Assembly (NCBI RefSeq): GCF_000732605.1
Contig: NZ_JPME01000009.1
Location: 1 to 35,416 of the forward strand
DNA from: Lacrimispora celerecrescens
GTDB lineage: Bacteria; Bacillota; Clostridia; Lachnospirales; Lachnospiraceae
Length of the DNA stretch: 35,416 nucleotides
Direction of reading: 5' to 3'
This document shows positions 3,470 through 23,093 of this stretch, piece after piece. Both the position numbers and the translations under genes were made by a program. Below the pieces are notes generated by a model. It was not told the DNA's origin and searched no databases. It saw only the letters and a program-made list of their open reading frames with translations. Within the stretch, counting starts at the first letter, position 1; every line of letters begins with the position of its first letter.

Positions 3470-4804
3470 CTATACTGTTTCGTTTGCTTTTGAGCGGGGA
3501 TTTATAGGTATGCAGCTCTTTATTTTAAATATCCCCTTTTCACTGTCCGGTTCAATAAATACCAGTCCACCCATCCCCTCAATCGTCTCTCTTATGATTT
3601 GCAATCCAAAACCATGATAGTCCTTATCTTTCTTTGTAGTCTTCGGTTCACCGTTCGCAATTAACAGCTCTCCGTTAAAGGAATTGGTTACCTCAATGAT
3701 TGTCCAATCCTGAGTGCTGTTGCTTGTTACCTCAATAAAACGTTCGAATTCGGATACCTTATTACAGGCTTCTATGGCATTGTTAATGATATTGGAAAAA
3801 ACTCGGACAATTTCCAGCTCTGTCATTGACGCAGATTCAGGAAGATGTGCATGTGCCTGGAAACGGATATTCTTTTCTTCACAGACATCGGCGGCATCCT
3901 GCAATATGGCATCCAGGACAATATTATCGGAATAGTCTTTGTGAATCTGCACGCTCCGCTGCATCGTATCGTGAATGTCATCCAGCAATTTGATTGCCTT
4001 TTTATATTCCTGGCGGCGCATTAAAGTTTTTAAAGAACCCATCAACTTTTCATAATCATGACGAAAGGCCCGATAGCTTTCTGTAAATTTACGATAGGAT
4101 TGATAGTGACGCATTTGGCGGGAAAGCTGTTCTTGTAATTGATGAGTAAATAATTCGTATTCAAACAATTCTGATATCCTTGATGCATGATTCAGGATAA
4201 CCAGCAGCCATAAGTTACTTATGATGCAGGAGCCCATATAGAGAGTAGAATACCAATTTTGCCTGACATCATCATAGTAACGTCCATCATTAATAAGCGT
4301 GAGAAACAGCCATTGAAAAAACAGATAAATGACAACAAATTTCAGCTGGCCTTGATTATTCATTAAATACCTGGCCTTTTGTCTGGGAACGATGACATCG
4401 CGGATCATCAAAAAGTAAAAAATTGAAAGAAGTACTGCTAATACAGAAATTATATCATCATGCTGCTGTAGAACATTTTTAATGCTTGTATGTAAGGCAA
4501 TAGAATAGATGGAAAAGACAATTCCCCGGCTGGAATACAAGGAAAACAAATAAATACTGCCCGCATAAAGTGTTTGAGTTGTGGTTCCGCTAAATAATAA
4601 TCGGAAAGATATCATAAATGAAACAAATACCATATATACAGCGAACCTTGAATCCAACAGTATATAGGCTGCTGCTGTTATAATAGCATTTATAGCAATT
4701 GCAATAATAAAATAAATCCAATGGTCCCTTTTCAACTGAAACAGCTTTTTAAAACGCAGAAGAGTAAATATATCATATGTAATCAGCGAAACAAGACTTA
4801 TCAT
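3470..4804 (-). CDS. AgrC-type membrane sensor histidine kinase (GHKL)
   Basis: 444 residues. About six hydrophobic segments fill residues 1-205, followed by a coiled region (205-245) and a DHp-like H-box FRHDYEKLMGSL with phosphoacceptor His249. The ATPase domain shows the N-box NIINNAIEAC and the G-box YHGFGLQIIRETIEGMGG. This arrangement is that of AgrC/ComD-like kinases that sense peptides through the membrane domain and phosphorylate a LytTR regulator. The regulator gene lies 9 bases upstream on the same strand. No AgrB protease or AgrD pro-peptide gene is adjacent, so the ligand is unknown. The ATG at 4804 follows an AGGAGAAT-type site. Confident in family, not in stimulus. Confidence 0.9.
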   Translation of the reverse strand: MISLVSLITYDIFTLLRFKKLFQLKRDHWIYFIIAIAINAIITAAAYILLDSRFAVYMVFVSFMISFRLLFSGTTTQTLYAGSIYLFSLYSSRGIVFSIYSIALHTSIKNVLQQHDDIISVLAVLLSIFYFLMIRDVIVPRQKARYLMNNQGQLKFVVIYLFFQWLFLTLINDGRYYDDVRQNWYSTLYMGSCIISNLWLLVILNHASRISELFEYELFTHQLQEQLSRQMRHYQSYRKFTESYRAFRHDYEKLMGSLKTLMRRQEYKKAIKLLDDIHDTMQRSVQIHKDYSDNIVLDAILQDAADVCEEKNIRFQAHAHLPESASMTELEIVRVFSNIINNAIEACNKVSEFERFIEVTSNSTQDWTIIEVTNSFNGELLIANGEPKTTKKDKDYHGFGLQIIRETIEGMGGLVFIEPDSEKGIFKIKSCIPINPRSKANETV

Positions 4805-4813
4805 GATATTCTC

Positions 4814-5560
4814 CTATCCGCAATCGTGAATGTTGGTACGGCTGATATAATTGGCAAAAACCTGTTTCATCTGCTTCATATAAGTTGCACCGATCGGAAT
4901 CTTTTCACCTGTTTTCAAAATTAAAACATTCTGTTCAAATTGCATAATATATGACATGTTCACAATATATGAACGGTGAATGCGAACGAACCCTCTATGG
5001 AGTAATTGATTCTCTATCTGCTCCATTGTTGAATAAAATTGAAATACTTCCCCTCCATTATAGTGAACGGATATAATTCGTTTCCAGATCTCGAAGAAGG
5101 AGATTTCCCTGAACGGAATCACTTTTCTAATATTATTTTTCCCTGACTCACAAAGGAACATATCATTTTCTTTTTTTGAGACCAAAGTAATAGCTCTGTT
5201 AAATATTTCCTCAAATTTAGCAGTAGTAATTTTTGATTTTATTAAATATTGGATAGGAGAAATATCATAAGCATCGAAAACATAATCTTCACTTGTAGTC
5301 AAAAAGATAATTTCTGAACTGCAGCCAAGTTCCCGAAGCCTCTTCGCCGTGTCCAGCCCATTCAGCTTGTTCATCAATATATCCAGGTAGATGATGTCTG
5401 CCTGGTTTGGTGAATCAGCTAAAAAAAACAAAAGTTCTTCTCCGCTTTTGAAATAGGAAATGGTGATTTCCACCTTGTTTTTCTTTGCAGCCTTTTTAAT
5501 CAACCCGGCATATTGAGCACGGGCATCCAGATCATCATCACACAAAAATATCTTCAACAT
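4814..5560 (-). CDS. LytTR-family response regulator (AgrA-like)
   Basis: 248 residues. The receiver domain (1-130) has the acidic pocket CDDD (7-10), phosphoacceptor Asp60 in IIYLDI, the conserved switch residue region IIFLTTSEDYVF and a K in LIKSK. A LytTR DNA-binding domain follows (about 145-240) with IRKVIPFREISFFEI, FVRIHRSYIVNMSYI and GEKIPIGATYM. LytTR proteins bind pairs of short direct repeats upstream of -35 boxes. A strong promoter (5668-5696) and three phased repeats (5696-5764) lie upstream of this gene, suggesting autoregulation. It is first in an operon with the kinase. The next operon downstream of the repeats on the same strand is the pilus cluster, a plausible but unproven target. 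Confidence 0.92.
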   Translation of the reverse strand: MLKIFLCDDDLDARAQYAGLIKKAAKKNKVEITISYFKSGEELLFFLADSPNQADIIYLDILMNKLNGLDTAKRLRELGCSSEIIFLTTSEDYVFDAYDISPIQYLIKSKITTAKFEEIFNRAITLVSKKENDMFLCESGKNNIRKVIPFREISFFEIWKRIISVHYNGGEVFQFYSTMEQIENQLLHRGFVRIHRSYIVNMSYIMQFEQNVLILKTGEKIPIGATYMKQMKQVFANYISRTNIHDCG

Positions 5561-5895: not shown

Positions 5896-5933
5896 ATAAA
5901 AAAGCGGCCTCAGAAATATAACTTTCTGAGGCC
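5896..5933 (-). terminator. Intrinsic terminator of the pilus operon
   Basis: An 11-bp perfect stem, GGCCTCAGAAA (5906-5916) with TTTCTGAGGCC (5923-5933), is followed on the minus strand by GCTTTTTTATTT. It lies 39 bases past the last gene of the pilus operon and shows that transcription normally ends before the two-component operon. Confidence 0.85.
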
Positions 5934-5972: not shown

Positions 5973-6488
5973 TTAACCTTTATTAATTGTTTCAATTGGG
6001 AAGAGCACCAGCCCCTGTACATCACTACATAGTACGCTTTCAATGAAATCCCTCCGTCCTACTACATGAAACCCTTGAACACCTGCCAGAGAAAATACCT
6101 TTTTATCACCGATTTTGGAAGCATCTATAACTGCCTTTTTAATCACACTGTGATCCGGATTGAGCTTGCTTTGTTCGGTCAGGCAATCCACTTCATGTAA
6201 CTCTGGGCAAAAGTACAATTCTGCAAGTTCATTAAACGTATCCATCAAAACAATTTCCGTAAAGACGGTGTCAGGTTCATATAATGCAATAACACTTTGA
6301 ATTTTCTCTGATACCAGCAAGAAAGGCTGGAGTAGAATATCATGAAAGGCCGTGTAGGAGTTTCCGTGGAAAAACAGTAATTCACGCCCCGGAAGTTTAT
6401 GAGCCCAGTCCTGTTTTATATCCCAGATATCAAATGGGCTTACTGCAATAGGTATATCTGTGTCAGCCATAATTAAGTAATATTCCAT
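5973..6488 (-). CDS. Uncharacterised protein, possibly Imm11 (DUF1629)-like
   Basis: 171 residues, soluble, no signal peptide or membrane segment. The C-terminal half (VFSLAGVQGFHVVGRRDFIESVLCSDVQGLVLFPIE) resembles Imm11/DUF1629 immunity-type proteins, in which a phrase of the form vSe-x-l-x-x-x-l-x-x-x-x-x-x-G-l-x-F ends the fold. The match is by eye and weak. ATG 6488 has AGGAGG 8-9 bases upstream. It is the last gene of the pilus operon, 34 bases after the Sel1-repeat gene. Sel1-repeat plus Imm-like neighbours are common in polymorphic-toxin and contact systems, but no toxin domain was seen. Function unknown. Confidence 0.6.
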   Translation of the reverse strand: MEYYLIMADTDIPIAVSPFDIWDIKQDWAHKLPGRELLFFHGNSYTAFHDILLQPFLLVSEKIQSVIALYEPDTVFTEIVLMDTFNELAELYFCPELHEVDCLTEQSKLNPDHSVIKKAVIDASKIGDKKVFSLAGVQGFHVVGRRDFIESVLCSDVQGLVLFPIETINKG

Positions 6489-6522
6489 CCTATTCCGCCT
6501 CCTGATATTATGTATTTATGGT

Positions 6523-7167
6523 TCAGGTATAATCTTTTCTGTTATATAAGTTGTTCTCAAATATTTCCGCAAGAGCTTTCGTCGAAAGTTCATTACCATC
6601 ATTAGAAGCTATCTGATAATGATATACCGCTTTCTCTATATCTTTTTTAACGCCCCAGCCATTTAGGTATAGATCGCCCAAGTGCTTGTGCGAAGTTGAG
6701 CAGCTGTTTTCAATGGCTTTTTGGAAGTATTCACTTGCTTTCTGATAATCCTGGATGACACCCAATCCTGTTTTATACATCCAGCCTAAATTATTTAAAG
6801 CACTTCCATTGTTATTTTCTGCTGCCTCCATAAGGTATATGAAGGCTTTGTGATAGTCCTTTCCAGCGCCTTTCCCATTGAGGTACATTGCGCCCAGCCT
6901 CGCCTGAGCATCATCTTTGCCTTGTTCCGCTGATTTTTCATACCATTTACGTGCCATCAAATAGTTCTTATTAATCATAACTCCATAATAATACAAGTTA
7001 CCGATTAAATATTGAGCGTCAGCATTTCCTTCATAGGCAGCTCTTAAATACCATTTGAATGCATCTTGTTGTTGTGAATGTTGTGAGTGTTCATCTAAAG
7101 ACATTTCATATAAATTGGAAATGTCCTGGCAAACATCTATAAGTATATCTCTCTTTGTATCCTTCAT
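6523..7167 (-). CDS. Sel1-like repeat (tetratricopeptide-type) protein
   Basis: 214 residues made mostly of Sel1-like repeats from about residue 35 to 205. Successive units carry the A-x-x-x-L-G-x-x-Y-x-x-G-x-G-V pattern: AQYLIGNLYYYGV, AQARLGAMYLNGKG, ALNNLGWMYKTGLGV and SHKHLGDLYLNGWGV, each followed by KAxxYxxxA. Such alpha-solenoids are protein-protein adaptors. No signal peptide is visible, so it is probably cytoplasmic. Its ATG overlaps the stop of the acidic secreted protein (ATGA), which suggests translational coupling; no separate ribosome binding site is evident. The partner is unknown, but its fixed place in the pilus operon suggests a role with the membrane or secreted products upstream. 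Confidence 0.85.
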   Translation of the reverse strand: MKDTKRDILIDVCQDISNLYEMSLDEHSQHSQQQDAFKWYLRAAYEGNADAQYLIGNLYYYGVMINKNYLMARKWYEKSAEQGKDDAQARLGAMYLNGKGAGKDYHKAFIYLMEAAENNNGSALNNLGWMYKTGLGVIQDYQKASEYFQKAIENSCSTSHKHLGDLYLNGWGVKKDIEKAVYHYQIASNDGNELSTKALAEIFENNLYNRKDYT

Positions 7168-8102
7168 CGGTCCAAAAGCAGTTCATTGACCTTATCTCTG
7201 TTCTCGTTAGAAATGAGTGTTTTAAAAACCTTTTTCTCAGAACCGGACATGGAATGTACATCCTCACCTGACAGCCGTGCTACGCGGATAATTGATTCTT
7301 CTTCGTTTTTGGCTCCGCTTATCCTGTTCAGGCTCCAATAGATGGATTGAAGCTCATCAAAATCGGCCTCGCCTGTTATTTCCACCTCATACGGATAATT
7401 CCTGGTCTGATTATGTTTTATAGCATAGACAGCAAGCGCTTCGCTAAAATTATCCTCTCCCTCTATGAGCGTATAATCATCAGAAATATCAAGCAGACCT
7501 GCAATATAATCAATGTGATCAAAAAGAGCCGTGTGCGCGGCTTCCATGGCTGCTGCAACATCAGGATTGCCTTTGCTTTCACCTGGAACTTTTGTTTCAG
7601 CCTGGGCCTGGCTTTCCTCCGGAATCTTACTTTCCCCATCTTTGCCGGTATCTGTCTGCAGCTCTTCCTCTTCCTCTTCCGTCCCATCGCTTTGTTCAGG
7701 TTTGGAGGCATCGGATCCATCAGAACCGCCAGAAGGTTCCTGTTCAGTTGAATCCTTGGAAGATTCTTCATCGCTATCCTCCGGCTCTGACACAGACGTT
7801 TTCTGTTCATCACCGCCCAAGGTATCTGAAGGATTATTGGAAGCTTCTGTATCTTTTTCGTTCCCGGCACTATCCTCCTGCTCCGCGTTGTCTGCCTGTT
7901 CCGTATGATCTTCCTGCTCTATGTTATCTTTCTGTTCTATCTTATCTTCCTGTTCCGTATGATCTTCTTGTTTTACATGATCTTCCTGTTCCGATTCTTC
8001 TACACGCACTTCCTCCTGTTGTGCATATGCCCGAACAATCTTCCCGGTAATCAGGCTGGTGCAAAGTACCGCAGAAACAAGAAATATTGCATACCTTTTC
8101 AT
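7164..8102 (-). CDS. Secreted acidic repeat protein of the pilus operon
   Basis: 312 residues. Residues 1-26 form a signal peptide (MKRYAIFLVSAVLCTSLI, then VRAYAQQ with cleavage after AYA). Residues 30-180 are highly acidic low-complexity sequence, with about eight imperfect EQEDH/T-type heptads followed by Ser/Glu/Asp-rich stretches. A folded C-terminal domain starts near residue 185 (NPDVAAAMEAAHTALFDHID) and has no family I recognise. No sorting motif or C-terminal membrane anchor is present, so it is released or held by charge. ATG 8102 follows AAGGAGGAG; a longer in-frame reading upstream overlaps the DivIVA-like gene and is not favoured. Its stop overlaps the Sel1-repeat gene. Confidence 0.8.
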   Translation of the reverse strand: MKRYAIFLVSAVLCTSLITGKIVRAYAQQEEVRVEESEQEDHVKQEDHTEQEDKIEQKDNIEQEDHTEQADNAEQEDSAGNEKDTEASNNPSDTLGGDEQKTSVSEPEDSDEESSKDSTEQEPSGGSDGSDASKPEQSDGTEEEEEELQTDTGKDGESKIPEESQAQAETKVPGESKGNPDVAAAMEAAHTALFDHIDYIAGLLDISDDYTLIEGEDNFSEALAVYAIKHNQTRNYPYEVEITGEADFDELQSIYWSLNRISGAKNEEESIIRVARLSGEDVHSMSGSEKKVFKTLISNENRDKVNELLLDR

Positions 8103-8115
8103 TCGATACTCCTCC

Positions 8116-8538
8116 TTATTTTGATATAGCCGTCTCCCTCTCTGACGCCTCATCTGATTTTGAATCCCCCAGCAGTTTTTCCAAGTCTCTTCTGATCTTC
8201 TCAATTTCCAGAATCTTATACTTTTCAAGACTGGATATCTGTTGCTGCAGTGTGATTTTATGCTGCTGCAGCGCCGTCAGTTCGTCATCACATTTACTCC
8301 GGGTCTGCTCAAGCATTTCCTTCGCTGTCTGCTGGGCAGCCAAAAGAGCTTCTGAAATCTGATTCTTCATCTGGTAATATTCCGTGCGGATGCTGCGAAG
8401 CTGTTCCAGTTCCCTGCACTGCTTTTCAGCCGCCTCCCCTATCTCATCAAGAAGGCTATCCACTTCCTGAGCATCATAGCATTTCCCGAACTTTTTTGTC
8501 AGCTTTACCATATCGATCGTTTCTTTCGTTAATATCAT
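8116..8538 (-). CDS. DivIVA-like coiled-coil protein
   Basis: About 140 residues. The N-terminus (TIDMVKLTKKFGKCYDAQEVDSLLDEI) matches the DivIVA/GpsB membrane-curvature domain, with the usual phrase F-x-x-x-x-x-G-Y-D-x-x-E-V-D-x-F-L. The rest (residues 40-130) is one long predicted coiled coil rich in Q, E and L. DivIVA proteins mark septa and poles and recruit partners. ATG 8538 is preceded by GAGGAGTGAG and starts 4 bases after the sortase stop. A DivIVA-like gene inside a sortase/pilin operon is unusual and could place the assembly machinery at a pole or septum; that is inference. Confidence 0.78.
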   Translation of the reverse strand: MILTKETIDMVKLTKKFGKCYDAQEVDSLLDEIGEAAEKQCRELEQLRSIRTEYYQMKNQISEALLAAQQTAKEMLEQTRSKCDDELTALQQHKITLQQQISSLEKYKILEIEKIRRDLEKLLGDSKSDEASERETAISK

Positions 8539-8542
8539 TTTC

Positions 8543-9340
8543 TCACTCCTCTCCTCTGCCCAGCTGGCTTCCTGATTCCGGCCGCAAAACACCGATTACG
8601 ATATACCGGGCATCGTCAAATTCATAGCTGCATGTGGAAAGCACAAGGAAACTGTCGTCATCTCCATATTCTGCGGCACTTTTAAATGTCGTTTTCGTTG
8701 AGGCATAAGCTAACAACGCATCTAAATTCACCTCATACATAAACGCCCGGTCACGCCATTCCCCTGCACTGATGACGCAGCCATATTTTAAATCAACCCG
8801 ATAATTGCCTTTCTCTGTGTATAGAAACATATAAGGGTGTTCATCAAAATAATCCTGTTTCTTATAGCCTGTCAGGGAACCAAACATCCTGCCGGATTTC
8901 ATATGGTGTCCGTAAATGATACTTAAATCTCCGAGAAAGTCCTCTGGGCAGTTAGGATCAAGAAATAATGTTCCATTTGCATTACTGGAACCATCCGGAA
9001 GATGATGGAGATACCAGTCATAATCATCTGCGCGCATAACAGGATAATCAATTGCAGTATCCGGGCAATACAGCCATGCGGCAGTGTCAGGATTGATTTT
9101 ATTTAACCACTCGAAATCGATAAAGACGGGCGGTATATTGCCTGACAGCAGCTCCCCTCCGGACTCACTGCCGCTTTCCCGGCGATGTGCCTGCTCCTTT
9201 AGAGTCTCATAACTTTGATTTCCTGCTTCATAAATCTGCAGACTTTTCTTAAGCTGATATCCAGAAAATATGATGACGCAGATTGAGCCGGTCAGAAGGA
9301 ACCATACTGCTGTTGTAATGATCTTTTGCCTTTTCTTCAT
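8543..9340 (-). CDS. Class B sortase (candidate anchoring or basal sortase)
   Basis: 265 residues. An N-terminal membrane segment (about 7-28) is followed by a SrtB-type catalytic domain: YGHHM with His145, LSTCSYEF with Cys237, and DARYIVIG with Arg245, plus the WLNKINPDTAAWLYCPDTAIDYPV block seen in class B enzymes. There is no C-terminal anchor, unlike the second sortase of the operon. Sortases cleave LPXTG-like signals between Thr and Gly and transfer the substrate to an amine. It lies 3 bases past the VPKTG pilin gene, and a pairing with that substrate is likely but inferred. The alternative is that both sortases share all substrates. Confidence 0.88.
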   Translation of the reverse strand: MKKRQKIITTAVWFLLTGSICVIIFSGYQLKKSLQIYEAGNQSYETLKEQAHRRESGSESGGELLSGNIPPVFIDFEWLNKINPDTAAWLYCPDTAIDYPVMRADDYDWYLHHLPDGSSNANGTLFLDPNCPEDFLGDLSIIYGHHMKSGRMFGSLTGYKKQDYFDEHPYMFLYTEKGNYRVDLKYGCVISAGEWRDRAFMYEVNLDALLAYASTKTTFKSAAEYGDDDSFLVLSTCSYEFDDARYIVIGVLRPESGSQLGRGEE

Positions 9341-9343
9341 GCT

Positions 9344-10645
9344 TCACCTGTCATTTTGCCTGAGATTTCCGTTTCTTTTTCTTTGTCTGGCAGCAAGAAT
9401 GAGGTAAATCATGGAGCCAGCCGCTACAACAGAAGAAACCCAAAGCATTCCCTCATATCGTTGATAGTTGATTTCATCACCGGTTTTGGGTACGCCTATT
9501 ACACCGGAAGCATTGCTGCCGCCCCCTGCTTCACTTCCGGGGCTGCCATCGAAGCCGGTTCCAAAGTCAGGTCCGTCATTTGGCCGGAGCCCGCCATCAG
9601 GGCCGGGGCCGCCACCGTTTCCTGATATCCCGGGCCCATTACTGCTTCCCGATACTCCAGGCCCATTACTGCTCCCTGACACGCCGGGCCTGCCGGGACC
9701 GCCGCCGCTGCCTGATCCACCGCCATCGCTGCCTGATCCACCGCTCCCGCTTCCGCCGTTGTACTTATTGATAAAAATGCAGGACTCTACCTGCTTATTT
9801 GCACCATTTGTCACTGTCCGTGTAACTTCAAGCTGGCCGTCTATGTCTCTTACCACATCAGTGATCGTGTATACGGAACGGTCATAAGTATAGTTTGTTC
9901 CTGCAGCCACTACTTCAGAGATCGTATAATAATAAGTTCCTTCCCGGGTATAGGACCATGTACCGAAATCCTCTTCTCCGGATCCGTAAATGGTTATGTG
10001 CTTGATACCGTCTGCACTTCCCTCCGGCATGGGATTTGTCTTATCCTGGGCTGTTAATGAAAAAGTAAAATTGGAAGCAGCAGACGGATTGCCGGAAACC
10101 GTCTTTTTCACCGGCGGGTCCACCATGATATCAGGGTCGCTTGCAATGGGAGTATACATGTTTACAAATCGAATGCTTCCCGCTTTGCTGCCATCACTTT
10201 TTTTAACTACGATCTCAGCCGAAAGGTTCACCCCTGTCTGTGTCACATAGACCGTTACGGAATAGACCTGTGTATCATAAGAATATCCCCTGGCAGGGAC
10301 TGATTGGTTCCCTTTGATTTCGTAACGGTATATACCGGTGTCTGAAAAGGTGATGGGACCGATATCTTTCACACCTGTCCCAGCGGCCGTAAAGGAATAG
10401 ATACTATTTAAACTCGCCTGCGGCATAGGATTTCCCGTATCCAGAGAAATGAGGTCATACGAAAACACATGATTCACATCGGAAGCCGAACTGTTTTTTA
10501 TAAAAACCTGATCTACATATAACGTAACGGCAGCCGAATCCGCTTCTGCGTAAACATTCAAGGGGAATCCGATGACCAAAAGGCAGAAGAGAAGCAGGCG
10601 CCGCACAGTAATCCATTTATTCTGCACCTTATTATTTGAGTTCAT
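9344..10645 (-). CDS. Pilin with FctA-type isopeptide domains, Gly-rich stalk and VPKTG sorting signal
   Basis: 433 residues. A signal peptide covers 1-33 (RRLLLFCLLVIGFPLNVYAE). Two Spy0128/FctA-type domains follow (about 38-165 and 175-296). The second keeps the isopeptide Lys in VKKTVSG (180-181) and Glu in YYYTISE (244). The first has TLYVDQVF and YRYEIKG at these places and appears to lack both. A Gly/Ser/Pro-rich stalk spans 297-380 with a repeated PGVSGSSNG unit. The C-terminus is a wall-sorting signal: VPKTG (385-389), a membrane segment (about 400-418) and RQRKRN. Start ATG 10645 follows AAGGAG at 10 bases. The long stalk and single-copy position suggest a basal or ancillary pilin. 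Confidence 0.87.
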   Translation of the reverse strand: MNSNNKVQNKWITVRRLLLFCLLVIGFPLNVYAEADSAAVTLYVDQVFIKNSSASDVNHVFSYDLISLDTGNPMPQASLNSIYSFTAAGTGVKDIGPITFSDTGIYRYEIKGNQSVPARGYSYDTQVYSVTVYVTQTGVNLSAEIVVKKSDGSKAGSIRFVNMYTPIASDPDIMVDPPVKKTVSGNPSAASNFTFSLTAQDKTNPMPEGSADGIKHITIYGSGEEDFGTWSYTREGTYYYTISEVVAAGTNYTYDRSVYTITDVVRDIDGQLEVTRTVTNGANKQVESCIFINKYNGGSGSGGSGSDGGGSGSGGGPGRPGVSGSSNGPGVSGSSNGPGISGNGGGPGPDGGLRPNDGPDFGTGFDGSPGSEAGGGSNASGVIGVPKTGDEINYQRYEGMLWVSSVVAAGSMIYLILAARQRKRNGNLRQNDR

Positions 10646-10652
10646 ATTTTCA

Positions 10653-11594
10653 TTACTCCTTTTCGTGTTTCCTTCTTTTTCCTCTGCATTTATAATAAAC
10701 TGCAATCATAAACAGAATCAGCATCATAACAGGCAGTAAGATTTGCAGCCACCGGGGAAGGCTTTCCCACTGGCCGGCTTGCCGGTCCACTGATACTGTG
10801 TTTGCATTGCTTGATTTTTCCTCATCAAATGGATTGCTGTAACATTCTTTTGTAATTCTCGCAGCCAGGATATCTCTCCCATTGGTCGCATCCGTAGAAC
10901 AGGTAGTCAGAAGCAGAATATGATCCTCCTCCGTTACCCCAATCCCGCGTGTATATACTGCCTTATCCAACAGGGACTTTAAATACGCCTTCTGCGCCTC
11001 TTTGCCCTGGACGTGGGGGGCAAACACACTTCCGTCATAGGCATCTGTTTTAATAAAAGCAAAAAATTCCAGTCCGTGATCTTTCCCGTCATAATACAAA
11101 TTGCCGTATTGGTGGCTTTCAAAAAAGCTTTTGCTGCTGAATGATCCAAGCTCTCCAAACATTGTTTGTTTTTCCATGTGATGTCCATACAAAATGCTAT
11201 TAAAATCCTGAAAGTCCTGGCGGTTGGTATAATCTAAAAAAATAGCTCCTGAAAGGGAATACTCTCCTAATGCATTGGTATTTACATATTTCCAGTTGTC
11301 CTCTCCCTGTGTTACCGGATAGTCGATATTCGTGCCATAAACCGTAAGCCAGCCAAACACCTCCGGATTAAGCTCCTTAAGCTGTTCAAATGACAGACCG
11401 CCTTCTGCTGAATCCGGTTTATAGACTGAGTATTGGGAAGCGTCCGCTGCCCGATATACCTGGTCAGAGTCCCATATGGAATAGACAGCCACAGCAACCA
11501 GCAGTAGAATAACAGCCAGTACCATAAAGTCCATGATACTGTTTACAAATCTTACTGCTATTCTGCCTGCTTTTTTTAATGATGCTGTGTTCAT
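10653..11594 (-). CDS. Class B pilus sortase with C-terminal membrane anchor
   Basis: 313 residues. The N-terminal membrane segment (about 19-40) and a second near the C-terminus (286-301, LLPVMMLILFMIAVYY) followed by KCRGKRRKH bracket the SrtB-type domain. Catalytic residues are His138 (LYGHHM), Cys232 (LLTTCST) and Arg240 (NGRDIL). A C-terminal anchor is typical of pilus-polymerising sortases (class C, and the class B enzymes of FctA-type pili). It sits just after the major pilin gene and 7 bases before the second pilin, which fits the polymerase. Expected substrates are the VTPTG and EVPTG proteins of this operon. Confidence 0.9.
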   Translation of the reverse strand: MNTASLKKAGRIAVRFVNSIMDFMVLAVILLLVAVAVYSIWDSDQVYRAADASQYSVYKPDSAEGGLSFEQLKELNPEVFGWLTVYGTNIDYPVTQGEDNWKYVNTNALGEYSLSGAIFLDYTNRQDFQDFNSILYGHHMEKQTMFGELGSFSSKSFFESHQYGNLYYDGKDHGLEFFAFIKTDAYDGSVFAPHVQGKEAQKAYLKSLLDKAVYTRGIGVTEEDHILLLTTCSTDATNGRDILAARITKECYSNPFDEEKSSNANTVSVDRQAGQWESLPRWLQILLPVMMLILFMIAVYYKCRGKRRKHEKE

Positions 11595-11668
11595 ATGAGC
11601 CCTCTTTCCGGTACCTTTAAATACTTGTTAAGATTTTTCTGGTTTTATCACCGCCCTGCACTAAAAGA

Positions 11669-12952
11669 TTAAGCACGGCTGCGTTTTTTACGGGATTTTA
11701 CTGCTACAAATGCTATGAATGACCCTGCTGCCAGAATCAAGATCATAACAAAAGGAAGGTTGTTAATGACCACACCTGTAGGGGTAACGGTCTGGTATTC
11801 ATTCGTAAATGCTGCACTATTTTGGTCTTTTCCAATAAGAATATTGCTAATACCGAATTGCAAATTGCCTTCAGTATTGCTGGTAGACTCCGGAGTTCCC
11901 CCATTTACCACGTACGCCAATGATGCTTTATAATTTTGCACTGCCGTTTCTGTTACATCATAGCTTGCACCTATATGAAGATCCGTGAAGACCAGCCTCT
12001 GGTCATGTTTGAGATTGACCGTCATAGGGGTTCCTGCAGAAAAGCTAATATAAGATTTGCTATTGCTATCTGTCTGCAGTGTCATATAATTTTCTGTTGA
12101 GGTAACAATATTATTAGATGCATCCAGGACATATGCCTTATATGTAACATCGCCTGGTATTACCTCCGGCTTCCTCGCAGCCACATCAAAAGCAAAATAT
12201 CTGGTCCTATCCGCATAATCCCCAGTAACAGTCTTGCTTATGGTGAGGGCCTTGTCAGTTGGGTCTGTTGAGTCAACGCCGCCAGCAGTTTTGGAATAGA
12301 TGTTGGTAAAGATCATTTTGCTGTAGTCGCCTTCAATGTTAGGATCACCATCCGGAGTCGGGTCCACCTTATCACCCACTACAGAGTTGCCGTTACTGCT
12401 GTCAAGTGCTACGATTTGTGAAGCAACAGCAGCTACGTACAGACCGTTGGTGCCGTTTTTTACATAAGCTGTTAATGTATACTCTGCATGAGAAAATATA
12501 TAAGCTTCGTTTGCGGCGGGTGCATATCCTGACACAGCTTCTTCCTCCGTAACCTTGTATACATATTTGCCCGCATGTGGAAAGGTAACACTGGAAAACA
12601 GATTATCAGTTTGCTTAACTATGGTCTTTGTGTTGAGATTATCGGCACCAGCTTCGTTGGCAATGAATGCAATGTTCTTGTCACCAAGGGCTGGCATAGT
12701 TGCTAAATCCCCCGGCACAGAGCTGTCATCGACGCTTATCGGCTGAACATGGAAAGTAAACGTTGCAGCAGGTGTTGGAGTACCTATGGGCATGGTTAGT
12801 TTTTTTGTAATTGCAGCCTGTGCAGGTGTTGTTTCTGTACCATAAATCGGATTACCGGCTGCAAATGCAGATGTAGCAGTTCCCATGCTCATAACCACAG
12901 CAAGAGCAATAGCCGGCAGCCTCCTTCGTAATTCTTTTAATCTTTTTTTCAT
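11669..12952 (-). CDS. Major pilin (FctA-like) with VTPTG sorting signal
   Basis: 427 residues. A signal peptide covers 1-32 (cleavage near AFAAG). An FctA/Spy0128-type domain (about 45-220) has ITKKLTMP with candidate isopeptide Lys50/51, FTFHVQP and YVYKVTEEE. A DUF7601-type beta-sandwich domain (about 234-385) begins LTISKTVTGDYADRTRYFAFDV and ends AAFTNEY. The sorting signal is VTPTG (389-393), then a membrane segment (399-417) and SRKKRSRA. The xPTGV form matches the EVPTG/QVPTG signals used by class B sortases of streptococcal FctA pili. A 138-base gap upstream contains AAGGAG before ATG 12952 but no clear hairpin. Likely the shaft subunit, by size, domain make-up and place next to the anchored sortase. 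Confidence 0.9.
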   Translation of the reverse strand: MKKRLKELRRRLPAIALAVVMSMGTATSAFAAGNPIYGTETTPAQAAITKKLTMPIGTPTPAATFTFHVQPISVDDSSVPGDLATMPALGDKNIAFIANEAGADNLNTKTIVKQTDNLFSSVTFPHAGKYVYKVTEEEAVSGYAPAANEAYIFSHAEYTLTAYVKNGTNGLYVAAVASQIVALDSSNGNSVVGDKVDPTPDGDPNIEGDYSKMIFTNIYSKTAGGVDSTDPTDKALTISKTVTGDYADRTRYFAFDVAARKPEVIPGDVTYKAYVLDASNNIVTSTENYMTLQTDSNSKSYISFSAGTPMTVNLKHDQRLVFTDLHIGASYDVTETAVQNYKASLAYVVNGGTPESTSNTEGNLQFGISNILIGKDQNSAAFTNEYQTVTPTGVVINNLPFVMILILAAGSFIAFVAVKSRKKRSRA

Positions 12953-13090
12953 GTCTTACACTCCTTTTTGATAGTTTTCTTATTTTGAACATATATTACA
13001 AGATTTCCGGTCGTTTAACCGTCCTGTAATTAAAGATCAAACATATTGGATTTTAAATACTAACAAGATAAATACCATAAATGCTATATT

Positions 13091-13642
13091 CTATATATTT
13101 CTCCGTCTGAGAACCGTCATCACTTTTCCCAGTGTATCTTTCACCTTTACCGCTCCGTAAATGCGGCTGTCCGTGGCATTTACCCTGCTGTCGCCAAGAA
13201 CGAACACTTCTCCTTCGTTCAATGTAAGGGGAAATTCTGCGCCATTTTCATATCTCTGGGTAGGTGAATAGATCTCCGGTTCCTGTTGGAGTGCACCGTT
13301 GACCAGCAGCCCTTCCTCCGTAATATCCACGGTATCACCGGCTGTGGCAACCACCCGGCGGATCTGTTTCTGTCCTTTAAATTCCAGCACAAGGGCATCC
13401 CGGGCTATATAGTTTTTGTCCAGGCGGTAGAACATCACCAGGTCTCCGTCTTTCACGGATGGACCCATGGAGGCATCCTGATTGCGGCAAAGCCCAAACA
13501 GAAACGTGAATACCAAGAGGAAAGCAAGAATAATCCCTGCAATTTTTGCCAGAAGAAACAGAATTTCCTCTCCAAGAGAGTATTCTTTCGTAGATTCGTG
13601 ATTTTTGCCTGCTGCTTTGATTTCCTGCTGAATTTCAGCCAT
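13091..13642 (-). CDS. SipA-like signal-peptidase homologue lacking the catalytic Lys
   Basis: 183 residues with one N-terminal membrane segment (about 27-51) and the signal peptidase I (S26) fold. The Ser region is present, ASMGPSV (Ser58), and the late motif VLGDSRVNATDSRIYGAV is conserved. The box that normally reads (Y/V)(I/V)KR(V/I) is QIRRVV (94-98), so the general-base Lys is Arg95. In streptococcal pilus operons the equivalent SipA/LepA protein has also lost catalytic residues and acts as a pilus-assembly chaperone. That role is likely here and is supported by a second, complete signal peptidase in the same operon. It starts 1 base after the adhesin stop (TGATATG) and uses GAGG. Confidence 0.85.
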   Translation of the reverse strand: MAEIQQEIKAAGKNHESTKEYSLGEEILFLLAKIAGIILAFLLVFTFLFGLCRNQDASMGPSVKDGDLVMFYRLDKNYIARDALVLEFKGQKQIRRVVATAGDTVDITEEGLLVNGALQQEPEIYSPTQRYENGAEFPLTLNEGEVFVLGDSRVNATDSRIYGAVKVKDTLGKVMTVLRRRNI

Positions 13643-13643
13643 A

Positions 13644-16631
13644 TCACAAACCTCGCTTTCTGCGGGAATGAATCATACCGGCACCTGCAATCACCATCAG
13701 CAGAAACATGGACAGTCCCAGAAGAACAGGTCCCTGCATGCTTTCTGCCTGTACACCGGTCGGTACCTCCTCATTTCGTGTGTTTCTAAAATCAAATCGG
13801 CTATTTATTTCTTCCAGGATGACCGGACCGGTATTCGAACCGTCTACTGACTGGCCTAAGTTAACCGCAAAAGACACTCTATAATTGGAGGGGCTATCTT
13901 CTGTCACACGGATACTGCCCTGCGGTACCGCCATAATGGTGATCTTCTGGCCATGTTTCAGCCTGAAAACAGCTTCTCCATTCTCACCCAGCGCCAACAT
14001 TCCATCGGCCGGTGCCTCTGAACCGGGCAAGGTTCCGCCTTTATACTGCAGCTGGGTCCCCTCGGCGAGGGAACCCCCTTCGCTGTCCATGAAGTATGCC
14101 GTAAACAAAAAGTCCCTTGTTTTGTCAGCGTAAGAGCCGATGACTTCCTGGGATACCGTGACATTTCTCATTTCGTATGCCAGATAAATGTCCGTATCAG
14201 CCAACACTCTGGCAAGTTCGACCGGGGAAATTTCTTTCCACTCTTCGTTTTCGTTTTCGTGTTCTTTCCAACCCACGTACACATAGCCTGGGATGGGTGG
14301 GATTTCATCATCCGGAAGGGTAAATGAGTCTCCCAAAACTGCGGCGTATGCAGCCGGGCCTAATCCATCTATGGGCCTCATACTCCGGTCTACATAATAA
14401 ACCTTCACGATTAGCACGTTAATATCGAAGTTGTTGAGCGGGTAGTCGTAGACGCTGCTTTTAACTTTCGCTATTTTATCGCGATACATGTTCGGGAGCG
14501 GTTTAGCATATGCCCTTGCCTCATTGCCCTCGAACGTAACCTCATTGTAAACAGACAATTTCGTAAGGTCTTTGGTGTAGATGCCGCCGCCATCATCTGT
14601 TGCTATATTGCCAGATATTGTTCCGGCTTTAATGATGACTGTGCTGTCAGAAAAAATACCGCCGCCATTGCCTCCAGTGGCTTTATTGCCGCTGATTTCG
14701 CCACTCTTCATGGTGAAGTCAGCATTGGACATTACATACGCACCGCCGCCTGCGGTATTCGATATATTGCCAGAGATGGTGCCGCCATCCAAGGTGACGC
14801 TGGAGTCGTTGGCATATATGCCGCCACCGGATGTGCTTGCTGTGTTATTCTGGATTTTGCTGCTGCCCATAACCTCTATTGTACTCCTGACATTCTTGTC
14901 GGTACTGGCGTATATACCACCCCCAAACTTTGCCCGATTGTCCGATACAACGCTGTTTGTGATGGTGATTGTACTACCTCCGGGGGTACAAAGACCGCCT
15001 CCTCTAGTGGTTACCTCATTATCGATTATATTGCTGTCAATAACATTTACAATAACTTGTCCTTTGTTCCCCCAAGCCATAATTCCACCACCCTGCTCTC
15101 CCCCTTTATTATGAGAGATTTCACTATTTTTAACAGTGAGTGACGAACTAGCAGCATTGTCATTACTAGGAAAGACATATACGCCGCAGCCACTCCAGGG
15201 CGAGCTATTATTTGAAACTACACTATTTTGTATCGTGGCTATGCTTTTATTAACATATATACCACCACCGCTTCCGTTCCCACCTGAACGATCACGATTC
15301 ACCCAATTTTCTTTAATCTCACTGCCATCATCTATAGTGAGGCGGCTGTTAAATACACCGAGACCGCCACCGTAGTAATAGGACTCATTCTCATAAAACT
15401 TGCTGTCAGATATCTCGACTGTGCTATTATTCTCGGCATATAAGCCGCCACCTCCGACGGTAGCTCCCCCAGTCGCCGTATTGTGAGAAATCATACTGCC
15501 TTTAATGATAATGTTACTGTTATCGACATAAACAGCACCACCCTTTTCCGCCTTACAATTTTGTATATTTGCTCCTCCCATCGTAAAGGCTGCTCCCGTT
15601 TTGACCTCAATCCCGCCGCCTGTACCGCCGCCGTCCAGTATGACGTTATCAAACGTAAGCTCGGCGTTGCTGCCCGAGGGAATAATGAAATGGCGCTGAT
15701 TCTTGGAGGTAAAGGTAACGGTACCTGAACCCGAGGCCCTAAATGTCAGATTTTTATTAATCGTTAGTGAGCTGGTAAATACAATGTTCGCACCATCAGC
15801 AATAATTATGGTGTCCCCTGAATGTACTTGATTATAGTTAATGAGCATTTGTATGGATGAAAAATCATCGACCGTTACTTCCAAAAACGGCTTAATGCCC
15901 TCCGGCAGACGCATACCTGCGTCGATGCCGGTAACCGCCGTGTCCTCCCCAATCTCCAGCGGGACGGACCATGAGGCCGCGGCTTCCTCGTCCATCGCAA
16001 ATTTGTTGTCATTCCCAATGGTCAGTGGCAGTAAGTACTCCGTTCCGCCAATGGTTTCGGAGGAAACTTTTACCACATAGCTGCCGGGTTCCATACCCTC
16101 AAACCGATAGGCACCATCCGTCTTGGTTAAGGTAGTCTGAACCTCGGTAATAAAGTCGTCCTCCGCATAGAGCGTGACGGGGTATCCGGCAATGCCGGTT
16201 TCACCCACATCCCTTATACCATCGCCGTTTTTATCCAACCAAAGCTCTCCGCTGATATGCCTATGACTGTCTGGATGAACTACTGTTACAACAGCAACAG
16301 GACGGGCTTGCGGATAAATCCAGGTCCCAATATCGGCGGTAAACAAATACGTTCCTGCTGCCTCCTGATGATACCCGTCAGATTCCCAGGTTACGGGTAT
16401 GTCTTGAACAGTGCCTCCATCCAGCGTTGCCGCCAGAGTTTCAGGCAATGGAATGTCTTCGATATTCGTACCTAATGGCACAGTGAGTTCCGTTACAGGC
16501 ATGTCAAAGGACATGATCACTTCTTTTTCACTGTCATTCTGCGCGATTCCTGCAACAGGCAGCAATCCCGCTAACAGCAATCCTATTAGCAATAGAGAAA
16601 AGGCAATGTGCCTACTGCTTCTTTTTCCCAT
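13644..16631 (-). CDS. Large beta-helix surface adhesin, putative pilus tip, EVPTG sorting signal
   Basis: 995 residues. Order: signal peptide (1-30); bacterial Ig-like domain (about 40-118); SdrD B-like/Cna-B repeat (about 126-240, with the Ca-binding phrase DKNGDGIRDVGETGI); right-handed beta-helix (about 255-705) with many GGGIY/GGGLY turns and N-x-A/S-x-x-x-G-G-G rungs; an InlB-type linker (SFTLPDDEIPPIPGYVYVGW); a DUF7601-type domain (about 800-950, VTVSQEVIGSYADKTRDFLF) like that of the major pilin; then EVPTG (955-959), a membrane segment and HSRRKRGL. The EVPTG signal is that of streptococcal FctA-type pilins. Beta-helix rungs of this type occur in adhesins and polysaccharide-binding or -cleaving proteins. 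It precedes the pilin genes, as tip adhesins usually do. ATG 16631 follows AAGAAGAGG. Confidence 0.9.
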   Translation of the reverse strand: MGKRSSRHIAFSLLLIGLLLAGLLPVAGIAQNDSEKEVIMSFDMPVTELTVPLGTNIEDIPLPETLAATLDGGTVQDIPVTWESDGYHQEAAGTYLFTADIGTWIYPQARPVAVVTVVHPDSHRHISGELWLDKNGDGIRDVGETGIAGYPVTLYAEDDFITEVQTTLTKTDGAYRFEGMEPGSYVVKVSSETIGGTEYLLPLTIGNDNKFAMDEEAAASWSVPLEIGEDTAVTGIDAGMRLPEGIKPFLEVTVDDFSSIQMLINYNQVHSGDTIIIADGANIVFTSSLTINKNLTFRASGSGTVTFTSKNQRHFIIPSGSNAELTFDNVILDGGGTGGGIEVKTGAAFTMGGANIQNCKAEKGGAVYVDNSNIIIKGSMISHNTATGGATVGGGGLYAENNSTVEISDSKFYENESYYYGGGLGVFNSRLTIDDGSEIKENWVNRDRSGGNGSGGGIYVNKSIATIQNSVVSNNSSPWSGCGVYVFPSNDNAASSSLTVKNSEISHNKGGEQGGGIMAWGNKGQVIVNVIDSNIIDNEVTTRGGGLCTPGGSTITITNSVVSDNRAKFGGGIYASTDKNVRSTIEVMGSSKIQNNTASTSGGGIYANDSSVTLDGGTISGNISNTAGGGAYVMSNADFTMKSGEISGNKATGGNGGGIFSDSTVIIKAGTISGNIATDDGGGIYTKDLTKLSVYNEVTFEGNEARAYAKPLPNMYRDKIAKVKSSVYDYPLNNFDINVLIVKVYYVDRSMRPIDGLGPAAYAAVLGDSFTLPDDEIPPIPGYVYVGWKEHENENEEWKEISPVELARVLADTDIYLAYEMRNVTVSQEVIGSYADKTRDFLFTAYFMDSEGGSLAEGTQLQYKGGTLPGSEAPADGMLALGENGEAVFRLKHGQKITIMAVPQGSIRVTEDSPSNYRVSFAVNLGQSVDGSNTGPVILEEINSRFDFRNTRNEEVPTGVQAESMQGPVLLGLSMFLLMVIAGAGMIHSRRKRGL

Positions 16632-16663
16632 ATTTTACCTCTTCTTTTTATGATTTTTCAAAT

Positions 16664-17218
16664 TTATGGCCTGCCACGGAAAATAAAGACCGCTTTTCCA
16701 TGTATCTGTTCTTTGCCTATCGCGCCATAGTTACGGGAGTCCAGGGAATCGCTTCGGTGATCTCCCATAACGAAATATTGATTTACAGAAAGTGTGAGCG
16801 GATAACTGATTTTCGTCTTCCCATAAATCTTCCCATAAGTCTTTTCATAGATATGCGGTTCTTTTTGTACCTCCCCGTTTACAAGGAAAAGCCCGTTATC
16901 ATCATCAAATTCCAGGACATTGCCGGGTATACCGCAGATACGCTTGACATAATCTTTCCGCCCATGTGCCTTAATAAAAATAATGTCTCCTTTTTCATAC
17001 AAACTGGAATATTTCCAGAATACGATTACATCTCCATCATAAAGGGCCGGTTCCATCGAAGTCCCTGATACAACCCCAATGCCAAACATCGTATTAAAAA
17101 TCAACGCTGCCGCTGCTGCAATTACTGCACTTTTTATAAGAGGGAACCAGAATGACCGGCTGATGTAATCCGTTGCTGCAGCATGTTTTGGATAATATTT
17201 TTTTCCTGATCTCTCCAT
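16664..17218 (-). CDS. Signal peptidase I (catalytically complete)
   Basis: 184 residues. One N-terminal membrane segment (about 24-45) precedes the S26 catalytic domain: SGTSMEP with nucleophile Ser54, DYVKRICGIPGN with general base Lys92, and MGDHRSDSLDSRNYG. It should remove signal peptides of the pilins and adhesin at the outer face of the membrane. It lies 32 bases before the adhesin gene. The ribosome binding site before ATG 17218 is weak (AGGA about 19 bases away), and the gene overlaps the small upstream ORF by 85 bases, so initiation may be coupled. Contrast with the Lys-less homologue at 13091. Confidence 0.9.
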   Translation of the reverse strand: MERSGKKYYPKHAAATDYISRSFWFPLIKSAVIAAAAALIFNTMFGIGVVSGTSMEPALYDGDVIVFWKYSSLYEKGDIIFIKAHGRKDYVKRICGIPGNVLEFDDDNGLFLVNGEVQKEPHIYEKTYGKIYGKTKISYPLTLSVNQYFVMGDHRSDSLDSRNYGAIGKEQIHGKAVFIFRGRP

Positions 17219-17352
17219 GTTATTGCTTGAACCTGCTTCCTCTTATTCTTTGTAATGCGGGCCTTTATTTCTTTTTCTATGGTCTGTATTGATATTTCAT
17301 CTGAATTGGCTGATATCAGACCGAAATCATTCATGTGCATTTCCTTGTTCAT
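17134..17352 (-). CDS. Small basic ORF at the head of the pilus operon
   Basis: About 72 codons from ATG 17352. GGAG lies 12 bases upstream; ATG 17334, with AAGGA 8 bases upstream, is an alternative. The product (KARITKNKRKQVQAITWRDQ, then EKNIIQNMLQQ) is hydrophilic, basic and helical, with no family I recognise. It ends 85 bases inside the signal peptidase gene in another frame. It could be a translational leader or an artefact of a longer signal-peptidase 5' region. A perfect TATAAT -10 at 17436-17431 on this strand lies upstream, with no good -35. Confidence 0.4.
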   Translation of the reverse strand: MNKEMHMNDFGLISANSDEISIQTIEKEIKARITKNKRKQVQAITWRDQEKNIIQNMLQQRITSAGHSGSLL

Positions 17353-17759
17353 CCCTGCATCTTTCTCCAATCAGCTGCATCGCAGAAATAACCAGGGGTT
17401 TATTTTTATTATATTTTTTGAAAAAAATCTATTATAATGTTCCAAAACACAAGTTTCATGTACTGATTTTCCATTTTAATATTTCCTCCTGGATTTACAG
17501 ATACCCTAGATTGCAGATACCAGATTGGCTGTCTTCGCATGCAATTCAACCCTATGTTTCTTTCCGTTTAGATAGTTCGTTAGAAAGGCCAGAAATTTTA
17601 TTATTTATTATTAATATTTTTCATCAGAAAAGTCTTTTTAAATGTTCCAAAACATGAGATTATTGTCCTAAATTTCTTGCTGCTGAAGCTTTTGCTGATA
17701 CATCGCTCAGCCGTTGATATTTCGCACGATTTGCGAGCTCAACAGGGTCACGACCCATA

Positions 17760-18231: not shown

Positions 18232-18555
18232 ATGGGATTCTATGAAGACATCGAAAAAAGTTTATTAGAAGCCATAGAAATGGAAAAAGGCAATATTCCT
18301 ATGGCTCAAAAAGAGAATATGCCAGCTCCTACGTTTGTTGCTTCTGATAAAGAAAAGGAATTGATTGATGAAGTAGTTAATTTAAGAAAAGAACAGAATA
18401 TATCTCAGAACCATTTAGCTAAACTTACCGGAAATAAACAACAGGCAATATCAAGGATAGAAAAGAAAGAAAACAGTCCATCTTTAAAACTATTTTATAG
18501 TATGGTAAATGCTCTGGGATATGATATAAAGATTGTAAAACAAGGTACATTATAA
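18232..18555 (+). CDS. XRE-family HigA-like antitoxin
   Basis: 107 residues. The C-terminal half (about 43-102) is an XRE helix-turn-helix: LRKEQNISQNHLAKLTGNKQ, then QAISRIEKKENSPSLKLFYS and MVNALGYDIKIV. The N-terminal 40 residues are the toxin-neutralising tail typical of HigA-like proteins. ATG 18232 follows AAAGGAGG at 7 bases. It is intact although the toxin upstream is broken, so it is an orphan that could still repress its palindromic promoter or neutralise a related toxin. A good terminator follows at 18649. Confidence 0.85.
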   Translation: MGFYEDIEKSLLEAIEMEKGNIPMAQKENMPAPTFVASDKEKELIDEVVNLRKEQNISQNHLAKLTGNKQQAISRIEKKENSPSLKLFYSMVNALGYDIKIVKQGTL

Positions 18556-18648
18556 AAGTATAAATACCCAAAAGTAATGGAAAGAAAAGACCATTAGGAA
18601 TCCCCACAGTGACTTCATACTACACACCTCCCAACGATGTTTTAGAAT

Positions 18649-18682
18649 GCTGCCTTTAAGTGCCATAAAGGCAGCTGATTTT
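18649..18682 (+). terminator. Terminator downstream of the antitoxin gene
   Basis: GCTGCCTTTA (18649-18658) and TAAAGGCAGC (18666-18675) form a perfect 10-bp stem with a 7-base loop, followed by TGATTTTATG. Confidence 0.6.
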
Positions 18683-18720
18683 ATGTATATAGAGTTTTTA
18701 TAGATTCTAAGTTGGTATCA

Positions 18721-19033: not shown

Positions 19034-19066
19034 TTGTTTTTTCAAATCACACTAAAACACCTCATT
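19034..19066. repeat. Right copy of 33-bp att-like direct repeat, overlapping the GH31 stop codon
   Basis: Matches 17987-18019 at 29 of 33 positions, the first 24 identical. It includes the last Phe codon and TAG stop of the glycosidase gene on the minus strand. Confidence 0.75.
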
Positions 19067-21223: not shown

Positions 21224-21245
21224 TTTCTTTTCCTCTCATCAACTT

Positions 21246-22076: not shown

Positions 22077-22116
22077 AACTTACCTCCTTTCACTGATTCA
22101 TAGATACAATCATAAC

Positions 22117-23022: not shown

Positions 23023-23065
23023 CTAGTTGTTTCCTCCTGACACTTAATTTCCCAATATAAGAAAG

Positions 23066-23093
23066 GAGGAGCGGTTGTGTGATACCACTCCTC
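23066..23093 (-). terminator. Stem-loop between binding-protein and permease genes
   Basis: GAGGAGCGGT (23066-23075) pairs with ACCACTCCTC (23084-23093) with one C-A mismatch and an 8-base loop, starting 8 bases past the binding-protein stop. There is no long T-run, so it is better read as a partial terminator or mRNA-stabilising hairpin, as is common after binding-protein genes of sugar ABC operons. Confidence 0.5.

Follow-up and report, generated by a model that had tools for sequence, protein, structure and literature searches.

We analyzed a stretch of 35,416 nucleotides from Lacrimispora celerecrescens (contig NZ_JPME01000009.1 of NCBI RefSeq assembly GCF_000732605.1, positions 1 to 35,416; hereafter the window), which is part of a 5.0-Mb genome in 89 contigs. 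Gene calls and domain scans gave a tight series of eleven minus-strand genes spanning 17218 to 5973, with a terminator after the last. Seven of them form a pilus locus with signal-peptidase-like proteins, a large surface protein, FctA-type pilins and two class B sortases, and these are followed by genes for a DivIVA-like protein, an acidic secreted protein, a Sel1-repeat protein and an Imm11-like protein. An earlier sequence-only reading of the window had recognized an FctA/SipA/SrtB-type pilus locus continued by four further genes, and the genes, their strand and their order were confirmed here. The features are as follows.

17431..17459, minus: promoter-like site 5' of the operon (ATGAAA-17-TATAAT), 10/12 consensus, a consensus match only
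16664..17218, minus: SipA1, signal peptidase I, dyad Ser and Lys retained (TIGR02227 110.5 bits, cut-off 47; motif by eye)
13644..16631, minus: large surface protein/adhesin with SdrD_B and DUF7601 domains and an EVPTG sorting signal (Pfam scan and sequence reading)
13091..13642, minus: SipA2, signal-peptidase-like (PF10502 77.9 bits)
11669..12952, minus: FctA1 pilin with FctA and DUF7601 domains and a TPTG sorting signal (Pfam scan and sequence reading)
10653..11594, minus: SrtB1, class B sortase (TIGR03064 197.1 bits, cut-off 153.75)
9344..10660, minus: FctA2 pilin with a VPKTGD sorting signal (PF12892 101.7 bits, 2 stretches)
8543..9340, minus: SrtB2, class B sortase (TIGR03064 143.1 bits, below the cut-off of 153.75; PF04203 29.2, cut-off 26.6)
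8116..8538, minus: DivIVA-like protein, 140 amino acids (PF05103 26.9 bits, below the cut-off of 28; structure model)
7164..8102, minus: acidic secreted protein, 312 amino acids, with signal peptide, acidic repeat region and conserved C-terminal domain (sequence reading)
7164..7568, minus: C-terminal domain of the acidic protein, probably like the pre-CHAP domain of a conjugative-element hydrolase (hhalign)
6523..7167, minus: Sel1-repeat protein (PF08238 130.1 bits, 5 stretches)
5973..6488, minus: Imm11-like protein (family-level call through relatives)
5906..5933, minus: intrinsic terminator, 11-pair stem with 6 GC pairs and T-run (terminator scan)
4814..5560, minus: LytTR response regulator, downstream; possible pilus regulator (PF04397 75.2 bits)
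3470..4804, minus: GHKL histidine kinase, probable partner of the LytTR regulator (PF14501 80.2 bits)

The tight spacing that had been noted before was reproduced: the gaps are 3 bp between FctA2 and SrtB2, 4 bp between SrtB2 and the DivIVA-like gene and 34 bp between the Sel1 and Imm11-like genes, and the acidic and Sel1 genes share an ATGA overlap; a gap of 13 bp between the DivIVA-like and acidic genes can be added. The start of the DivIVA-like gene was set to ATG 8538 and that of the acidic gene to ATG 8102 (signal peptide by eye), and the start of FctA2 is uncertain (TTG 10705 or an inner start).

A DivIVA-acidic gene pair accompanies five of seven pilus loci

We examined the distribution of the locus in 25 genomes of the genus and in 299 genomes of the family (Lachnospiraceae), one per genus, both samples including L. 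celerecrescens. SrtB2 orthologues of at least 59% identity were found at 7 places in 6 of the 25 genus genomes, all of them pilus loci with two class B sortases. A profile of the DivIVA-like family detected 5 places in 4 of these genomes, our own included, and at every one of the five the gene stood immediately behind SrtB2, with the acidic gene following it. The order SipA1-adhesin-SipA2-FctA1-SrtB1-FctA2-SrtB2-DivIVA-like-acidic was retained in all five pair-bearing loci. The DivIVA-acidic gap was 13 bp in four of them, the fifth having been called with an upstream alternative start. One genome (G020) carries two diverged pilus loci (a and b), with a DivIVA-acidic pair in each. In another (G007), a 15-pair terminator stands directly 3' of the acidic gene, followed by a regulator and a kinase related to those of the window, which delimits the unit to nine genes.

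No intact DivIVA-acidic pair was found away from pilus loci in the 25 genus and 299 family genomes. We also inspected 6 regions in the genus and 8 in the family that carry more distant SrtB2 relatives (34-44% identity): neither pair family appeared there at E<=1, nor at E<=10 in the frames of the retrieved loci outside pilus loci. SrtB2-like matches occurred in 270 of the 299 family genomes, and neighborhoods were inspected for the 8 family regions and the short loci. The family search with the whole acidic protein returned 11 matches beyond our own genome, which we rejected as confined to the signal-peptide and acidic part (ranges ending at or before residue 129). We also rejected 9 matches of the DivIVA-like profile beyond our own (E 8e-4 to 0.09), which were partial and, judged by range with their loci unopened, mostly coil.

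A protein database search gave 40 DivIVA-like and 36 acidic entries, perhaps including the window's own, and the named organisms of the close relatives were Lacrimispora or Clostridium. Viral contigs gave no match to the DivIVA-like or acidic C-terminal family, and plasmids none to the DivIVA-like protein. General scans of genome contigs with the DivIVA-like protein and its alignment returned no relative and are uninformative, since relatives exist in the genus and such scans may omit near records. Among the retrieved loci, we also noted three short proteins (L019:14588-15193, L140:9119-9769 and L138:19114-19620) whose starts look alike by eye and which have no Pfam match over the cut-off.

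The pilus genes

The pilus part comprises two class B sortases, SrtB1 above and SrtB2 below the TIGR03064 cut-off, two FctA-type pilins matching PF12892 at 101.7 and 31.5 bits (cut-off 22.1), and sorting signals (EVPTG, TPTG and VPKTG) close to the C-termini. By eye, the catalytic Lys position of SipA2 is Arg in 7/7 loci, and the Ser position is replaced in 2/7, those of G003 and G011. Pilus operons with SipA rely on a class B sortase, and their SipA lacks the Ser-Lys dyad (PMC4049620). By its genes, the pilus part is of the SipA/class B sortase (FCT-type) kind, predicted to yield covalently joined pili at the cell surface. SrtB1 ends in a hydrophobic stretch followed by a short basic tail (by eye).

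The same genome contains a second class-B-sortase locus (G000:C31:1-15000, L085). It has a 3,299-amino-acid frame that is a distant relative of the adhesin, together with two lipoprotein-like genes (by eye), and loci of this kind are also present in G005, G007, G019, G020 and G057.

The DivIVA-like protein

PF05103 matched 18/18 scanned members of the DivIVA-like family at E<=0.01, the best at 6.9e-8. The N-terminal motif CYDA.EVD.LL was invariant across the 18 aligned sequences. In the structure model, a helix at residues 5-16 is followed by a loop and a long helix at 23-122, with block means of 94-98 in the predicted local distance difference test (pLDDT) over residues 31-120. DivIVA and GpsB are built from a short N-terminal helix, a loop and a long coiled coil, and the layout of the model appears to match this plan. 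Ratios of nonsynonymous to synonymous divergence (dN/dS) relative to our own copy were 0.33, 0.15 and 0.31, indicating purifying selection.

Across the 25 genus genomes, PF05103 was over its cut-off in 2 and matched at E<=0.01 at 6 places in 5 genomes; five of these places are the pilus genes, and the sixth (in G018) is partial and weak. The DivIVA-like gene is thus the sole clear DivIVA-domain gene found in these genomes, and a diverged one may escape detection.

The acidic secreted protein

The repeat described in the sequence-only reading is real, with an 18-bp unit in 5.7 copies at 7891-7992, and the region is variable. The net charge is -53 in the window protein and -45 to -55 across the five loci (computed on the called frames with their signal peptides). 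We saw no sorting signal in the protein, and its C-terminal domain gave no Pfam match in 6/6 members. Relative to our own copy, dN/dS was 0.17, 0.27 and 0.26 for the C-terminal domain and 0.43, 0.36 and 0.31 for the whole gene, indicating purifying selection. The AlphaFold model of the C-terminal domain had a mean pLDDT of 53.8.

We presumed that this domain is kin to one in conjugative-element hydrolases. A tblastn search (limit E 10) returned 5 plasmid records, one of which, at E 10, was a CHAP protein of Monoglobus. Its gene stands on NZ_OY725736 (L162, 448339-454470) after a VirB4-type ATPase gene and a class B sortase gene. Nothing useful came from searching the PDB with either the acidic family or the Monoglobus domain. 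Aligned by hhalign, the acidic C-terminal and Monoglobus domains reached probabilities of 58.5% and 71.3%. In the run that included controls, the two domains reached 69.0% with a score of 35.0, against maxima of 3.0% and 20.7 in 100 column-shuffled controls, and unrelated families reached 4.5% with a score of 21.7 (Imm11-like) and 0.2% (DivIVA-like). Because this pairing was picked from a search, we regard the relationship to the CHAP-linked domain as probable rather than proven; the resemblance suggests a wall-side role for the acidic protein. The L162 locus would also tie a class B sortase, outside pili, to a domain resembling the acidic C-terminus.

The Sel1 and Imm11-like genes

The Imm11-like protein of the window matches no Pfam family at E<=1. 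Two of its orthologues score 20.8 and 19.3 bits with PF07791 (cut-off 22.1), the relative in G003 scores 24.2, and one database relative bears a precomputed PF07791 assignment. Imm11 has been described as an immunity family (PMC12077181, PMC3482391).

The Sel1 and Imm11-like genes follow the acidic gene in 2 of the 5 pair-bearing loci, namely the window and locus a of G020, where Sel1 is a remnant of 46 amino acids and the Imm11-like gene is intact. In loci G019b and G020b, proteins of about 200 and about 465 amino acids take their place; in G020b the former has no Pfam family and the latter is PTS_EIIC. G007, which has the pilus genes and the pair, is a cleaner case than G019 below: Sel1 was not matched there at E<=0.001, and the Imm11-type matches were all distant (best 5.6e-20).

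A second site in G019 corresponds to that of the window, its flanking genes matching at 87-95% identity. This second site lacks the genes from SipA1 through the DivIVA-like gene, together with the beginning of the acidic gene; a 126-amino-acid remnant of the acidic C-terminus, Sel1 (82%), the Imm11-like gene (87%), the regulator and the kinase are retained. Compared with the window, dN/dS was 0.32 for Sel1 and 0.25 for the Imm11-like gene, pairwise values that include the time before the loss. G019 also has another pilus locus with the pair (L020), so its Sel1 and Imm11-like proteins could act in trans. The acidic remnant (L138:11244-11624) is an open frame with 94% identity and a dN/dS of 0.10 relative to the window, and may be a recent truncation or still in use.

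The sequence-only reading had proposed searching for the four genes beside class B sortases in other Lachnospiraceae. No intact DivIVA-acidic pair was found apart from pilus loci in the genomes searched, and close Imm11-like genes (E < 1e-90) occurred at 4 places in the genus, 2 after a pilus operon and 2 not. In G003, the gene lies about 20 kb from the pilus locus on the same contig. Common descent explains the co-occurrence of Imm11-like genes and pilus loci. The wider family is common, with Imm11-type matches at E<=0.1 in 22 of the 25 genus genomes. Among the neighbors scanned with Pfam, no toxin gene was recognized beside the Imm11-like gene. DUF4280 had no match in our own genome, and the same search was positive in 5/5 relatives tried. 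As an additional observation, the Imm11-like genes of G003 and G011 (L139, L141) share their clusters with DUF4280 and several phage-baseplate-type proteins, an arrangement resembling effector delivery.

Signals and neighboring genes

The sequence-only reading had begun the operon at 17352, which fits an inner Met of a 78-amino-acid frame (17370-17134). We rejected this frame as a gene; it overlaps SipA1, and no similar frame was seen by eye 5' of SipA1 in 4/4 relatives. The operon start is placed at SipA1, 17218. A promoter-like site within the DivIVA-like gene (8502-8473) was likewise set aside: it occurs in three relatives too, yet is spelled by conserved codons. The promoter scan of the window gave 41 sites against 35.7 expected.

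The terminator expected past the last gene is present at 5933-5906 and is the top minus-strand candidate by stem and tail. A second 11-pair stem lies inside SrtB1 (11541-11517); it contains 3 GC pairs, and its tail is poor. The scan gave 21 terminator-like sites against 11.4 expected, and weak matches carry little weight. No tRNA, and no Rfam family at the gathering score, was found in the window.

The LytTR regulator and GHKL kinase (3470-5560) lie 3' of the pilus genes in our genome, in locus a of G020 and in G007, and persist at the G019 site without pilus genes. The kinase has a weak MapZ_EC1 match. Upstream, about 10 kb (18232-28019) between the pilus operon and a LOR-domain gene (28192-28668) hold frames that by eye resemble transporters, sensors and regulators. 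This stretch is absent at the matching sites of G020 (L022) and G019 (L138), where the LOR gene adjoins the pilus locus or its remnant.

Interpretation of the locus

We propose, with a probability of about 45%, that the locus encodes a nine-gene pilus unit in which a dedicated DivIVA-like inner scaffold and a wall-side partner place or support pilus assembly. The gene content, order, conservation and domain types of the unit, and the terminator in G007, are observed; from the gene content we infer the placement, the partners and what the acidic protein does. The sortases would polymerize and anchor the pilins, and SipA2, with its broken dyad, would have an assisting part like that of SipA in Streptococcus pyogenes. 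The DivIVA-like protein would be a cytosolic coiled-coil scaffold with affinity for membrane that is curved or marked in some other way; there it would collect sortase, pilin precursors or Sec translocons, so that pili would arise at defined places. The acidic protein would be exported to the wall side, where its C-terminal domain would probably help the fiber to pass or to be anchored. In Bacillus subtilis, DivIVA was cross-linked with SecA and needs SecA to bind the membrane, an effect its authors consider likely indirect (PMC3924036). A more specific version, which we put forward tentatively, is that the pilus operon captured a DivIVA-domain protein as a positioning scaffold with the acidic protein as its partner outside, an inside-outside pair that would set pilus sites in cells in which no other DivIVA was recognized.

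Several observations weigh against this proposal. Two of the 7 loci (G003 and G011: adhesin-SipA2-FctA1-SrtB1-FctA2-SrtB2) have the core but not the pair. An unrooted tree built from SipA2, SrtB1 and SrtB2 sets these two apart from the five pair-bearing loci with a support of 0.977, so one gain in the five, or one loss in the two, explains the pattern, and the association may be a single event that was kept. The SrtB1 of both pair-less loci has the positive tail as well, and the tail alone therefore does not call for a DivIVA-like protein. Between the window and locus a of G020, synonymous divergence was 0.16 (0.11-0.22) for the pair and 0.33 (0.30-0.37) for the seven core genes; the value of the pair is close to those of the regulator (0.14) and the kinase (0.15). 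The Imm11-like gene gave 0.24, three upstream genes ranged over 0.22-0.68, and all seven non-pilus genes pooled gave 0.24 (0.21-0.27). The difference between core and pair points to recombination of the core, whose alleles appear to have been exchanged relative to the pair, with a breakpoint near the SrtB2/DivIVA-like junction, and the pair would tolerate different core alleles. The window's DivIVA-like copy falls under the PF05103 cut-off, the first 20 residues of its model have block means of 55 and 50, Foldseek with this model found no PDB match, and in a PDB sequence profile search GpsB (E 0.054) ranked behind a designed coil (0.0087). The CHAP link of the acidic domain is moderate, having been picked from a match at E 10. 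In addition, the genomes with a close Imm11-like gene (our own, G003, G019 and G020) all carry a double-sortase pilus locus.

This last point, together with the tight spacing, the ATGA overlap and the single end terminator in our genome, would suit the device proposed in the sequence-only reading, in which all four extra genes belong with the pilus; so would the pilus loci with the pair in both genomes that have a full-length Sel1 orthologue (our own and G019), where the genes could act in trans. We nevertheless consider that device very unlikely. The part concerning the DivIVA-like and acidic genes held in all five loci, whereas the Sel1 and Imm11-like genes are missing after the acidic gene in three and Sel1 is cut in a fourth; G007 maintains pilus and pair with no Sel1 match and only a distant Imm11 type, and the G019 site keeps both genes without pilus genes. 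Nothing was found in support of the further suggestion that the immunity-like protein guards a pilus-linked cargo. We judge the Sel1 and Imm11-like genes, from their distribution, to be passengers of one chromosomal site outside the pilus unit, most likely an immunity pair without its toxin. That this site retains them, independently of the pilus, as an immunity pair of the polymorphic-toxin type seems to us somewhat better than an even bet: the same site recurs in our genome, G020 (with the Sel1 remnant) and G019, the relatives in G003 and G011 stand beside DUF4280 and phage-baseplate-type genes, and Imm11 is an immunity family. Against it, no toxin gene was recognized beside the Imm11-like gene in the window, our genome has no DUF4280 match, the immunity role of Sel1 is a supposition, and the genes co-occur with pilus loci at the genome level.

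Two other roles can be imagined for the DivIVA-like protein. As a small GpsB/DivIVA-type division or wall-synthesis regulator, it would tune wall synthesis during pilus production and place nothing. Its domain class, the lack of another clear DivIVA gene among these genomes and the fact that the PDB search returned no DivIVA-family chain other than GpsB would fit, but a gene present in 4 of 25 genus genomes, and beside SrtB2 in 5/5 places, is no general division factor of the genus, and we regard this role as unlikely. Slightly less likely again is a generic coiled-coil adaptor without DivIVA-type membrane targeting, regulating, for example, the sortase or export of the acidic protein; the low-confidence N-terminus of the model, weak matches to other coiled-coil families and the designed protein as top PDB sequence match are consistent with it, but the invariant CYDA.EVD.LL motif and the PF05103 matches in 18/18 sequences argue for a DivIVA-type protein.

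The siting of sortase pili in Gram-positive cells is unsettled. In Enterococcus faecalis, sortases are enriched at the septum and pili are found elsewhere, for which the authors invoke cell maturation or other localization factors (PMC10107303); the available text of that article mentions DivIVA 0 times. An operon-borne DivIVA-domain gene is a candidate localization factor of this kind, and the natural loci without it provide built-in controls. In the literature searched, with most subscription journals outside its scope, we found no account of a sortase pilus operon that includes a DivIVA gene.

Comparison with known systems

The locus shares with the SipA/class B sortase (FCT-type) locus a class B sortase, FctA pilins and a SipA without the Ser-Lys dyad. 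It differs in having two SipA-like proteins (one with the dyad intact), two class B sortases and two FctA pilins, and in the DivIVA-like and acidic pair, of which the available portions of published FCT-type accounts make no mention.

Relatives of the Imm11-like protein match PF07791 as Imm11 (DUF1629) proteins do, and two of them stand in PAAR-like/baseplate-type clusters; the window gene has no recognized toxin partner and follows a pilus operon. With the Monoglobus CHAP-type hydrolase, the acidic protein probably shares a domain with the motif LAVY..K...EV...L..I.W..N, which there precedes CHAP. The Monoglobus gene is immediately preceded by a class B sortase gene, itself preceded by one for a VirB4-type ATPase, whereas the acidic protein is without a hydrolase domain and no conjugation gene was seen beside it. 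Finally, the DivIVA-like protein resembles DivIVA/GpsB in its PF05103 match along the protein and, tentatively, in the short helix, loop and long helix of its model; it differs in its length of 140 amino acids, its window copy under the Pfam cut-off, its patchy distribution and its place as a gene of a pilus operon.

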